From: an uncultured Acidovorax sp.
Lineage (GTDB): Bacteria; Pseudomonadota; Gammaproteobacteria; Burkholderiales; Burkholderiaceae_C
Length of the DNA stretch: 64,000 nucleotides
Assembly: GCA_913774625.1 (NCBI GenBank)
Contig: CAJYHL010000010.1
Span: forward strand, 124,001-188,000
Reading direction: 5' to 3'
The notes below the pieces were generated by a model that was not told the origin of the DNA, did no database searches, and saw only the letters and a program-made list of their open reading frames with translations. Below are positions 4,651 through 27,192 of this stretch, piece after piece (the stretch's first letter is position 1; each line of letters begins with the position of its first letter). The translations under genes were made by a program, and so were the position numbers.

Positions 4651-5418
4651 TCACCAGCAGACGAACCCACCGTCCACGATCAGATCGACGCCGGTGCAGA
4701 ACGACGCGGCGCGGCTGGACAGGAAGACCGCCGGGCCCACCAGCTCATCGACGGTCGCCATGCGGCCCAGAGGCGTGTCGCGCTCGAAGATCTTGACCTG
4801 CTCGGCCACTTCCGGGCGCAGGTTCATCGGCGTGGCGGTGTAGCCGGGGCTGATGCTGTTCACCCGGATGCCGCGGTCCGCCCACTCCATGGCGAGGCTC
4901 TTGGACAGGTGCATGACCGCCGCCTTCGAGCTGTTGTAGTGCGCCTGCAGCAGCCCGCGGTTGACGATGCTGCCGGACATCGAGGCGATGTTGATGATCG
5001 CGCCCTTGCGGCGCGGCAGCATGACCCGGGCCTGGGCCTGGCAGCTCAGGAAGACGCCGTCGACGTTGACCGCATGCACCTTGCGCCACTGCGCGAACTC
5101 CATGTCCTCGGCCGGCGCGGCATTGGCGATGCCGGCGGCATTCACGCCGATGGTGAGCGCGCCCACGTCCTTCTCGGTGCGCTCGACCGCTCCGCGCAGG
5201 TCGTCCGCGCTGGTCACGTCGCCGGCCTGCGCCAGCGCGCGGCGACCCAGGGTGCGGATCTTCGCGACGGTTTCTTCCATGCCGGCTTCCTGCTGAGGCA
5301 GGTCGAAGCAGGCCACATCCGCGCCGGCCTGCGCCAGGCCGATGGCCAGCCGCTGGCCGATGCCGCTGCCGGCGCCGGTCACCAGCGCGACCTCTCCGCT
5401 CAAATCGAAAAGCTCCAT
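4651..5418 (-). CDS. SDR-family NAD(P)-dependent oxidoreductase
   Basis: MELFDLSGEVALVTGAGSGIGQRLA (TGxxxGxG), ...YNSSKAA catalytic motif. Confidence 0.9.
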   Translation of the reverse strand: MELFDLSGEVALVTGAGSGIGQRLAIGLAQAGADVACFDLPQQEAGMEETVAKIRTLGRRALAQAGDVTSADDLRGAVERTEKDVGALTIGVNAAGIANAAPAEDMEFAQWRKVHAVNVDGVFLSCQAQARVMLPRRKGAIINIASMSGSIVNRGLLQAHYNSSKAAVMHLSKSLAMEWADRGIRVNSISPGYTATPMNLRPEVAEQVKIFERDTPLGRMATVDELVGPAVFLSSRAASFCTGVDLIVDGGFVCW

Positions 5419-23304: not shown

Positions 23305-23805
23305 TCAGTCGATCCCCAGCGCCCGGTCCAGCGCCAGGCTTCCCCCGCCGCGCCCGACCAGGTACAGCATCAGCCCTGCCCAGGACAGGTGCGTGGGCCA
23401 GGCATCGGGATAGACGAACACCTGGATGACCAGGGTCATGCCCAGCAGGGCCAGGGCCGAAAGGCGGGTGAACAGGCCCAGCACCAGCAGCAGCGGGAAC
23501 ACATGCTCCGCCAGGGTGGCCATCTGTGCCGCCAGCTCGGGCGGCAGCAAGGGGAGCCGGTACTCGTCGCGGAACAGCGCGTAGGCGCTGTCGGAGATGC
23601 TGAACCAGCCCTCTACCTTGGTGCGCGCCGACATCCAGAAGATGCCTGCCAGCGCCACGCGGTGGACCAGCGCCAGCAGGCTGTGGGGGGTGAGCCAGGC
23701 GGCGACTGCGGCCAGGCGCGCCAGCCCGGCGCGTAGCCCGCCTTGCGGCGCCATCGCGGAGGGGGCGTGGGTGTGGGCGTGGTCTATGGGTCGGGGTGTG
23801 TTCAT
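23305..23805 (-). CDS. DoxX family membrane protein, last gene of bufferin-like operon
   Basis: RVALAGIFWMSARTKVEGWFSISDSAYALFRDEYRLPLLPPELAAQMATLAEHVFPLLLVLGLFTRLSALALLGMTLVIQVFVYPDAW. Confidence 0.9.
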   Translation of the reverse strand: MNTPRPIDHAHTHAPSAMAPQGGLRAGLARLAAVAAWLTPHSLLALVHRVALAGIFWMSARTKVEGWFSISDSAYALFRDEYRLPLLPPELAAQMATLAEHVFPLLLVLGLFTRLSALALLGMTLVIQVFVYPDAWPTHLSWAGLMLYLVGRGGGSLALDRALGID

Positions 23806-24596
23806 GGCGTGGGGGCCGCAGGCGGCGTGGAGTGGGGCAGGGCCAGCGCGCCCGCGTCCAGCAGGCTGCCCAGCAGGTGGGGGAAATCGAGTGCGGGATC
23901 GGCCATCAATGCCTGGGTGGCGGCGTCCTCCAGCGGCAGGCCGGCGGCGCAGGCGTCCAGAAAGACGCAGCCGCCGCGCGGCATGCCGCGCCAGGCCACC
24001 GCCGCACCGGGCCGCGTCAGCAGGGCGCCGTCGCCCGTCCAGGCCAGCGCAGCGTCCACCGGCTGGCCCGCGCGGTGGCATTGCCACAGCGCATAGGCCG
24101 GATGCTCCGTGCACCAGCGCCAGCGCGCGGCGGGGTGGGGGCGCAAGGGCGTCCGGGCCCAGGTATCGGTGGGCTGCCGGCTCCATGCGCCGTGGTCCAG
24201 GGCCGGGGCATCGGCGGCAAGGTGGGCCTCCGTCCAGCAACGGTCCAGCCGGGCCACATCGCTGAGGTAGGGCAACCCGGCGGCGGGCCCGAAGTCCGCC
24301 AGAAATGCGGCAAAGCTGCGGCCATAGGACACCAGCAGGCCGTCGTCCGGTGGCTGGGCGCGTGCGTACACGGCGGCTGCGGCGCGGAACCAATCCTCGC
24401 CCACCAGCTGGCACACGGTGGGGTAGCTGGCCTGCAGCGCGTCAACGCAGCCCTTGAGCACGGTGTTGCGGTACACGGCGAAGCCGGCCTGGGCCTCCAG
24501 CGCCTGCAGCCAGGCCGGCGGCGGGGAAGTGCCTGGGCCTGGGCCTGGGCCCTGCAGCGCGGCGGCCAGGCCGTCCTGGAATGCGCTCAGCTGCAT
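23802..24596 (-). CDS. bufC: DUF2063 / HvfC-BufC-type partner protein
   Basis: FAVYRNTVLKGCVDALQASYPTVCQLVGEDWFRAAAAVYARAQPPDDGLLVSYGRSFAAFLADF; directly downstream of an MNIO gene. Confidence 0.88.
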   Translation of the reverse strand: MQLSAFQDGLAAALQGPGPGPGTSPPPAWLQALEAQAGFAVYRNTVLKGCVDALQASYPTVCQLVGEDWFRAAAAVYARAQPPDDGLLVSYGRSFAAFLADFGPAAGLPYLSDVARLDRCWTEAHLAADAPALDHGAWSRQPTDTWARTPLRPHPAARWRWCTEHPAYALWQCHRAGQPVDAALAWTGDGALLTRPGAAVAWRGMPRGGCVFLDACAAGLPLEDAATQALMADPALDFPHLLGSLLDAGALALPHSTPPAAPTP

Positions 24597-25438
24597 GCGG
24601 CCTCCGCAGGCAGCACGGCGGTGAGCAGGCGGTGGGCCTGGTCGCGCTCGTCCAGCAGTACGTCGAAGGCCGGCAGTTGGTCATCGCGCTCGATGAGGGT
24701 GGGCACGGGGCCGGTGCGCGCAATCGCCTGCGCGTACAGCGCCCACACGGCAGGGGCCACGGGCGCGTCGTGGCTGTCGATGAGCAAGGCTGTGCCGTGC
24801 ACCGGATCGGCGTGGTGGCCGGCGAGGTGGATCTCCGCCACCGCAGCCAGCGGGAAGGCCTCCAGATAGCTCCGGGCGCAAAAGCCCAGGTTCTGGGCGC
24901 TGACATGGACATTGTTCACGTCCAGCAGCAGGTGGCAGCCGGTGCGGCGCACCAGCTCGGCCAGGAAGTCGGTTTCGGCCCAGTCGTGGCCGTCGATGTG
25001 CAGGTAGTGCGAGGGGTTTTCGATGGCGATGGGCCGCGCCAGCGCATCCTGGGCGATGGCGATGTTGTCGGCAATGCGCCGCAGCGCCGCCCCCGTGCGC
25101 GGAAACGGCAGCAGGTCGGGCAGGTACTGGCCGCGCCAGGTGGACCAGGCCAGATGCTCCGATACGAGGGCCGGCTCCACGCGGCGCGCCAGGGCTGCCA
25201 GCCGCGCCAGATGGACTGCATCGGGCGGGGCGTCGGCGGCGAGCGACAGGGACACACCATGCAGGGCCACCGGGTGGCGGTCGCGGATGGCGTCCAGCCA
25301 GGCCAGGCGGGGCCCGCCCTCGGCCAGGTAGTTCTCGGGATGCACCTCCCACCACAGGCCGGGTGCGCAGCATTGCAGCGCTTCGCCATAGTGCTGGGGC
25401 TTGAGGCCCAGGCCCGCAGTGAGGGTGCGCGGATGCAT
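24587..25438 (-). CDS. bufB: DUF692 multinuclear non-heme iron-dependent oxidase (MNIO), BufB-type
   Basis: GLGLKPQHY, WWEVHPENYL, ALHGVSLSL, ENPSHYL, LLLDVNNVHVSAQN, EIHLAGHH, LIDSHDAPV. Confidence 0.93.
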   Translation of the reverse strand: MHPRTLTAGLGLKPQHYGEALQCCAPGLWWEVHPENYLAEGGPRLAWLDAIRDRHPVALHGVSLSLAADAPPDAVHLARLAALARRVEPALVSEHLAWSTWRGQYLPDLLPFPRTGAALRRIADNIAIAQDALARPIAIENPSHYLHIDGHDWAETDFLAELVRRTGCHLLLDVNNVHVSAQNLGFCARSYLEAFPLAAVAEIHLAGHHADPVHGTALLIDSHDAPVAPAVWALYAQAIARTGPVPTLIERDDQLPAFDVLLDERDQAHRLLTAVLPAEAACS

Positions 25439-25441
25439 GGC

Positions 25442-25729
25442 TCAGGCCTTGTTCGGGGTGAGGGAGCCCATGCCCTTGGGCGTCTGGATGGTGGTGCAGG
25501 TGCCTGCGGGCACGAACTTCCAGGCATTGCCCTGATAGTCCATCTTGGACGTGCCTGCACAGGTGGTGCCGGGGCCGGCTGCGCAGTCGTTCTTGCCGGC
25601 GAGCGACACGCCGTAGCACTTTTCCATGGCCGGCTTGGCAGCGTCTGCGGGCTTGTTCTGGGCCAGGGCGGCGCCGGAGGCCAGGGCGGCGAGGGCGATG
25701 GCGCCGAGGCTGAGGGTGCGTGAGGTCAT
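25442..25729 (-). CDS. bufA: DUF2282 / BufA1-type RiPP precursor (bufferin-like) with signal peptide and four Cys
   Basis: 95 aa: signal [24 protein letters not shown]; core [43 protein letters not shown] (Cys 38, 49, 57, 78). Confidence 0.92.
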
Positions 25730-25787
25730 GGGGTTCTCCAAAAAAGGGGGTGACGACCGGATGCCATTCATCCGATCTGCGCTGTAA

Positions 25788-25813
25788 TTCGCGCTGCAGT
25801 GGCGGGCGGTTAC
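25788..25813 (-). promoter_or_regulatory. Predicted ECF-sigma promoter of buf operon: GTAACC-N16-CGAA
   Basis: Minus strand GTAACC (25813-25808), 16 nt, CGAA (25791-25788), upstream of bufA; same motif and spacing on the opposite strand at 25847-25872. Confidence 0.85.
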
Positions 25814-25846
25814 AGCAGGGCTCATCTCTTTTTTTTGGTGCTTCCT

Positions 25847-25872
25847 GTAACCCGATGGGCCCCTCCACCGAA
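25847..25872 (+). promoter_or_regulatory. Predicted ECF-sigma promoter of the sigma/anti-sigma genes: GTAACC-N16-CGAA
   Basis: GTAACC 25847-25852, N16, CGAA 25869-25872, 20 nt before the ATG at 25892. Confidence 0.85.
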
Positions 25873-25891
25873 CTGCCTTCAGGGAGACACC

Positions 25892-26449
25892 ATGGAGATC
25901 GTTGAAGAGCGCTTGAGGGGCCTGCTGCTGCAGGGGCTGGACGCCGATGCCGCGGCCTACCAGCGCTTCTTGAAGGAGCTGAGCGCGCATCTGCGCGCGT
26001 TTCTGCGCCGCCGTTTGGCGCAGCGCCCCGACGAGGTGGAGGATCTGGTGCAGGAAACGCTGCTGGCGGTACACAACCAGCGCCACACCTACCGGCACGA
26101 CATGCCGGTGACCGCCTGGGCGCACGCCATCGCGCGCTACAAGCTCATCGACTGGTGGCGCTCGCATGCCGTGAAGGAGGCGCTCAATGATCCGCTGGAC
26201 GATGCCGAGGAATGGTTCGCCCACAGCGACAGCGAGGCCGCGCAGGCACGCCGTGACCTGGGCCAGTTGCTGCGCACCTTGCCGGACAAGCAGCGCCTGC
26301 CCATCGAGTACGTGAAGCTGGAGGGCTTGTCCGTGGTCGAGACCGCACGCCTTACCGGCCTGTCGGAGTCGGCCGTCAAAGTCGGCGTGCACCGGGGGCT
26401 CAAGGCCCTGGCCGCCAAGATCCGGGGCATGGCGGATGCCAGGCCTTAG
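25892..26449 (+). CDS. ECF RNA polymerase sigma factor (SigF-like)
   Basis: [51 protein letters not shown] (sigma2) and [34 protein letters not shown] (sigma4). Confidence 0.93.
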
Positions 26450-26550
26450 TTGTATGCATGGGGTGGAAACCGCGCGCTTGCCGGCCGCTGCTGCTGGGCG
26501 GCCCTGGCCGGTACGGCGTTCCGGCGTCCGCAAACCCTGTAGGAGATGGC

Positions 26551-27192
26551 ATGAAGACCGATGAATTGATCCACCTGCTGGCCGCCGATGAGCGGCCCGT
26601 GCGTCGCACTGCGGTCGAGCAGCGCTTTGCTGCGGCCGTCCTGGCCGGCCTGGCAGGGGCGGCTGTGTTGATGGTGGCGCTGTTCGGCCTGCGGCCCGAT
26701 CTGCGGCAGGCCCTGGCATGGCCCATGTTCTGGGGCAAGCTGGTGTTTGCTGGCGCGCTGGCCGCCGCCGGCCTGACGCTGCTGCTGCGCCTGGCCCGCC
26801 CCGGCATGAAGGTCGGCAAGGCGGCCGCCTTGCTGGCCGTGCCGCCGGTGGCGATGTGGGCCTTGGCGGCGCTGGCCTTGGCGCAGGCGGATGGGCCGCA
26901 GCGGTGGCCGCTGGTGCTGGGCAGCACCTGGCATAGCTGCCCGCTCAACATCGCCACCTTGTCGGTGCCCGCCTTCATGGCTGCCTTCTGGGCCCTGCGG
27001 GGCGCTGCCCCTACGCACCTGGCCCGTGCCGGTGCGGTCGCCGGCTTGCTGGCGGGCGCGCTCGGGACACTGGTGTATGCGCTGCATTGCCCCGAAATGG
27101 CCGCGCCCTTCCTGGCCGTGTGGTACGTGGCGGGCATGGCGATTCCCATCGTGCTGGGCGCCTTGCTGGGGCCACGACTGCTGCGCTGGTAG
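26551..27192 (+). CDS. nrsF: DUF1109 / NrsF-family anti-sigma factor, predicted multi-pass membrane protein
   Basis: [19 protein letters not shown], several hydrophobic segments, [19 protein letters not shown] and [23 protein letters not shown]. Confidence 0.88.

Follow-up and report, generated by a model that had tools for sequence, protein, structure and literature searches.

Twin outward-facing ECF16-type promoter motifs conserved in a predicted sigma factor–bufferin stress divergon of an Acidovorax-like bacterium

The locus described here is very probably an autoregulated stress divergon of the ECF16 (SigF/NrsF) type. Four features of it are directly observed: two exact copies of the motif GTAACC-N16-CGAA, the conservation of these copies among relatives, the families to which the adjoining genes belong, and the conserved cysteines of the encoded anti-sigma factor. 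The locus is part of a 64-kb stretch of DNA (contig C10, positions 124001-188000; hereafter 'the window'), which belongs to a genome of 4.66 Mb, and its closest named relatives are Acidovorax species.

Organization of the locus

The minus-strand operon has the gene order bufA-bufB-bufC-doxX. Its first gene, bufA (25442-25729), encodes a DUF2282 bufferin precursor of 95 residues (PF10048, 91.9 bits; cut-off 22.4), which begins with a stretch resembling, as judged by eye, a signal peptide and has four cysteines (C38, C49, C57 and C78) that are invariant in 75 relatives; with the BufA2 model NF050166 it scores 21.4, below the cut-off of 60. It is followed by bufB (24587-25438), encoding the MNIO bufferin maturase formerly known as DUF692 (NF050167 MNIO_BufB, 357 bits, cut-off 310; PF05114, 323 bits), by bufC (23802-24596), encoding the DUF2063 partner protein (PF09836, 74.3 bits; cut-off 27.2), and by the last gene of the operon (23305-23751), the product of which is a DoxX-family membrane protein (PF07681, 66.6 bits; cut-off 23.6). 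In the window genome, neither a second PF05114 (MNIO) protein besides BufB nor a second DUF2282 protein besides BufA was found. Bufferins are copper-chelating peptides, and sigma/NrsF neighbours have been reported for Buf1 but not for Buf2 clusters (PMC12452194); the Buf1 partners DUF2063, DoxX and the sigma/NrsF neighbours are all present at this locus.

The plus-strand operon comprises the gene of an ECF sigma factor of the ECF16/SigF type (25892-26449; 185 residues; NF009188, 302.6 bits, cut-off 250), for which only region 2 (PF04542, Sigma70_r2) and region 4 (PF08281, Sigma70_r4_2) were detected above their cut-offs, and the gene of the NrsF (DUF1109) membrane anti-sigma factor (26551-27192; PF06532, 249.3 bits, cut-off 26.8). 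With the stricter NCBIfam equivalog NF042994, NrsF scores 133.9 bits, which is below the cut-off of 300. Of its cysteines, C130 is shared by all (100%) of the 104 relatives aligned and C180 by 95%. About 100 bp (26450-26550) lie between the two genes in the window, and this spacing may hold a separate nrsF promoter. In many relatives the sigma and nrsF genes are adjacent or nearly so, and others have a somewhat shorter gap.

Twin motifs and their conservation

The gap between bufA and the sigma gene spans 25730-25891 and thus measures the 162 bp given in the original prediction, which also had the coordinates, the spacers and the orientation of both motifs right. The predicted promoter of the bufA operon (25788-25813, minus strand; GTAACCGCCCGCCACTGCAGCGCGAA) consists of a -35 box GTAACC at 25813-25808 and a -10 box CGAA at 25791-25788, while the predicted sigma-nrsF promoter (25847-25872, plus strand; GTAACCCGATGGGCCCCTCCACCGAA) has its GTAACC at 25847-25852 and its CGAA at 25869-25872. 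Both match the motif exactly with a spacer of 16 nt, both are likewise exact in relatives, and both point outwards, each towards its adjoining gene; for the bufA-side promoter, the Caulobacter orthologue has been mapped by 5'RACE. The leading T of the published ECF16 consensus, tGTAACc-N16-CGAA (PMC3420878), is also present at both sites. The two -35 boxes are separated by 33 bp (25814-25846) containing a T8 tract, a region that is UP-element-like, and neither a sigma-70-like promoter nor a terminator was found in the bufA-sigma gap.

The transcription start of Bradyrhizobium EcfF, an ECF16 sigma factor, was mapped 6 nt past the -10 box (PMC3420878), and the starts in the window would therefore be expected near 25878 (plus) and 25782 (minus), in good agreement with the earlier values of about 25880 and 25781. 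The predicted leaders are then ~14 nt long on the sigma side and ~53 nt on the bufA side. A longer reading frame of the sigma factor, starting at 25799, is argued against, since this position lies upstream of the promoter and of the predicted start.

Among 50 loci fetched by similarity of the sigma protein alone, 46 have both motifs exact with N16; in two (L035 and L047) a single mismatch affects one of the two motifs, and another two (L055 and L056) have one-mismatch matches only. This conservation is decisive evidence that the pair is not a product of chance, because 46 of 50 relatives that were selected by protein keep both copies with 16 nt between the boxes. When 99 loci with a relative of the sigma factor are considered, the N16 spacer is found at 74 on the sigma side and at 81 on the target side, and any other spacer (N10-N15 or N17-N22) occurs at most once each; this set was partly fetched with the motif itself, so that 46 of 50 is to be taken as the unbiased figure.

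Related systems and proposed circuit

In Caulobacter crescentus, GTAACC-N16-CGAA precedes both sigF-nrsF and CC3254-3257, and these promoters are documented by 5'RACE, primer extension and lacZ fusions as well as by loss of expression in delta-sigF arrays (PMC3511200). The Caulobacter motif, described as similar in the original prediction, is in fact identical. The SigF regulon is induced by copper, and a sigF mutant is copper-sensitive (PMC8224329). The locus sigF-CC3252/CC3254-CC3257 shares with the window the gene set (DUF2282, DUF692, DUF2063, DoxX), the sigma/anti-sigma neighbours and the promoter on both units; it differs in that Caulobacter has further targets, namely a second DUF2282-DUF692-DUF2063 operon and msrPQ, whereas no other target was found in the window genome. 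The proposal that a single ECF factor serves the RiPP operon as well as the genes for itself and its anti-sigma factor is hence supported, and has been demonstrated at the orthologous Caulobacter locus. The implied novelty is not supported: the twin-promoter architecture has already been described experimentally in Caulobacter and is thus known, and the window locus is a further, strongly conserved instance of it in an Acidovorax-like bacterium. With it, the copper-responsive sigma circuit of the Caulobacter type would also be present in a beta-proteobacterium resembling Acidovorax, in which the two promoters can be mutated base by base.

Bradyrhizobium EcfF/OsrA belongs to the same ECF16 sigma group and has an autoregulated promoter of the same type, and OsrA is a DUF1109 anti-sigma factor with two key cysteines, as is the NrsF of the window (PMC3420878). 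C130 and C180 of NrsF correspond to C129 and C179 of OsrA, which were found to be important for binding of the sigma factor and for the response to the signal (PMC3420878). EcfF differs, however, in its looser reported consensus, with N14-15 instead of the N16 of the window, and in its targets, which include methionine sulfoxide reductases but not a bufferin operon. The SigF/NrsF-MrpX-MsrPQ systems responding to hypochlorite (Azospira SigF, Brucella BcrS) likewise use this kind of sigma/anti-sigma pair, and carry msrPQ and a methionine-rich peptide as cargo in place of the bufferin genes of the window.

By analogy with these orthologues, from which promoter use, release from NrsF and copper chelation are carried over, the circuit would very probably operate as follows. 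In unstressed cells the sigma factor would be held by the membrane anti-sigma factor NrsF. A periplasmic signal, most likely an excess of copper, or else another thiol-reactive metal or oxidant, would be sensed via the cysteines of NrsF and lead to release of the sigma factor, and RNA polymerase with the sigma factor bound would then start at both tGTAACC-N16-CGAA promoters. The minus-strand promoter would drive bufA-bufB-bufC-doxX, with a periplasmic, copper-chelating modified peptide as the presumed product, and the plus-strand promoter would yield more sigma factor and NrsF, which would amount to positive feedback with a built-in brake.

Promoter spacing and A/T tracts

A set of 29 relatives, obtained by thinning at 82% sigma identity, has A/T-rich tracts at positions -17 to -11 ahead of the sigma-side -35 box (69-93% A/T) and at positions -16 to -11 ahead of the target-side -35 box (52-86% A/T), with positions -10 to -2 being GC-rich. 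The T8 tract of the window, which precedes the sigma-side -35 box by 11-18 nt, fits the usual position on that side, and is ~5 bp too far from the bufA-side box. The pattern in the relatives is reminiscent of an UP element; in E. coli, ECF promoters have been rescued with a synthetic A/T-rich region from -35 to -60 (PMC3817407). The spacing of the two -35 boxes falls into clusters of 32-35, 40-47 and 52-57 bp, near 33, 43 and 54 bp, and on the sigma tree at least 15 changes of gap class are counted. For a period of 10.5 bp, a Rayleigh R of 0.58 was obtained (29 events from clusters at 80% identity; p=5e-5), where it must be considered that the period tested was one already noticed and that part of the data had been fetched with a gap-limited pattern. 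In a separate survey, 19 other genera, a set which may share species with the first, gave R=0.52 (p=0.006) and a best period of, again, 10.5 bp. A strict helical rule was rejected, as exceptions occur at 35, 37, 47, 49, 50, 51, 64 and 66 bp.

The clustered distances thus suggest helical phasing of the boxes, which we consider a lead only. Extending this lead, one may tentatively picture two ECF16 promoters that are helically phased around UP-like A/T tracts, with output and feedback coupled either by a pair of RNA polymerases or by an UP element common to both promoters, and with a gap that evolves by roughly whole turns of DNA (33, 43, 54 bp) while the cargo swaps between copper-binding and methionine-sulfoxide-repair operons; this is a possible scenario, but we would not presently bet on it. 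The conserved A/T tract and the distribution of gaps may represent an additional layer of promoter architecture in ECF divergons, of which we know no earlier description, the literature having been lightly searched. One may go further and regard the central A/T tract as the main control element, at which a nucleoid protein, a regulator or a shared UP element would couple the promoters. The placement of tracts at -17 to -11 ahead of both boxes in the relatives and the clustering of distances at ~33, 43 and 54 bp speak for this idea, but such tracts may be simple UP elements, the tract of the window has the usual position on the sigma side only, and the divergon contains no regulator gene except those of the sigma factor and NrsF, so that we deem it unlikely. 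An element in the bufA leader, TTACA-N3-CGCAGA, at first looked conserved and was discarded when it proved weaker in the thinned relatives.

The gig/rpoQ locus of Cupriavidus metallidurans

The gigPABT/rpoQ-rsqA divergon of C. metallidurans has orthologous genes in the same layout as the window, the rpoQ product of strain CH34 being 66.5% identical to the window sigma factor. On the CH34 chromid (L081), perfect copies of TGTAACC-N16-CGAA are present on both strands between gigP and rpoQ, with motif starts at 4781 (minus) and 4816 (plus) and the boxes 34 bp apart; nowhere else on the 2.58-Mb chromid does such a site occur, and the count in the control was zero. The divergon differs from that of the window by this 34-bp gap and by longer leaders. 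In the published work, a promoter upstream of gig was not identified, rpoQ was assigned to RpoD, and expression of gig was found to persist after deletion of rpoQ (PMC10304878); a 2026 paper still offers no reason for RpoQ being non-essential (PMC13192273). The CH34 twin boxes provide a candidate gig promoter where one has been missing; being open to direct mutation, they make the question of RpoQ dependence directly testable.

Since gig expression survives the deletion of rpoQ, exclusive control by the cognate sigma factor may not be valid in every relative. An alternative is that the boxes are real promoters but are recognised, in addition or for the most part, by another sigma factor, so that the neighbouring one is not the sole driver. 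It is in line with the observation that deletion of rpoQ raised gig expression in metal-treated cells of C. metallidurans, an effect for which the authors' account is network compensation (PMC10304878), at a locus having the same perfect twin motifs. The window genome, however, encodes only one sigma protein matching at E<=1e-20 and one NrsF, no second nrsF gene having been found in it, and deletion of sigF in Caulobacter lowers expression of the target operons. We thus consider a second sigma factor quite improbable, and retain control of both units by the cognate sigma factor as the preferred reading for the window.

Genome-wide occurrence of the motif

A pattern search of the whole 64-kb window for GTAACC-N(14-18)-CGAA returned the two sites and no more; dinucleotide shuffles of the window gave a mean of 0.07 matches per window and never reached two. 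The genome-wide scan for GTAACC-N16-CGAA, by which the regulon was to be defined, was carried out and fell short of this aim, as the matches do not exceed the reversed control: single exact copies number 6, against 9 in the control, and are thus at background level, and with one mismatch allowed there are 105 against 130. In contrast, the outward-facing pair occurs once in the window genome, and its control was zero in each of three surveys (399, 399 and 401 genomes). The motif scan by itself is hence weak evidence, and the outward pair is strong evidence. The reading that a GC-rich gap has produced a near-palindrome by chance, singled out for its likeness to the Caulobacter sequence, is in keeping with the background level of single copies but is already refuted by the persistence of both copies with their 16-nt spacers in the relatives selected by protein similarity, in addition to the uniqueness of the pair, and is hardly conceivable any longer.

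Among further exact N16 matches, two were rejected as targets for lying inside reading frames (L004, pilus-like; L005, protease-like), and a third (L003), although located before an acetyltransferase-like gene, has neither the leading T nor the A/T tract. In the examined flanks of both Oxidored_molyb (PF00174) loci, an ECF16 site was not found even when one mismatch was allowed.

Exchange of target operons among relatives

The 81 distinct twin loci face bufferin genes in 64 cases, msrPQ in 12, and other or unrecognised genes in 5. By parsimony, the cargo changes at least 7 times on the sigma tree, many branches of which are weakly supported, the starred branches forcing only 2 changes. Outward twin motifs with msrPQ as cargo are found in Curvibacter-like, Paraburkholderia and Caballeronia relatives, and known msrPQ systems of the ECF16 sigma group are responsive to oxidants, hypochlorite among them. 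In the loci L044-L046, L048, L049, L051, L053, L061 and L082-L084 the sigma-NrsF divergon and its promoters are accompanied by msrPQ in place of the bufferin operon, and most of these loci also have genes for MXKDX methionine-rich peptides.

A distant subgroup of the sigma factors comprises 10 loci (33-36% identity), of which 6 have the exact motif on the target side only. For the five examined (L072-L075 and L077), the target-side gene encodes a methionine-rich peptide or a DsbD-like protein, and an exact copy of GTAACC-N16-CGAA was not found on the sigma side.

Additional copies of the promoter occur in some relatives. L058 has two tandem NrsF-like genes, with one copy before the second gene and another after it (positions 1449, 2705 and 3450). 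At L103 (2320) and L106 (2795), an extra copy lies beyond nrsF, ahead of the gene of a small peptide that looks secreted and contains a CYG motif, apparently another bufferin precursor. Finally, conjugative plasmids of Stenotrophomonas and Pseudomonas (L085 and L090) carry a sigma-NrsF pair with bufA facing it; the part of these plasmids that was read yielded no MNIO gene, and a partial second NrsF-like gene is present at its left edge.
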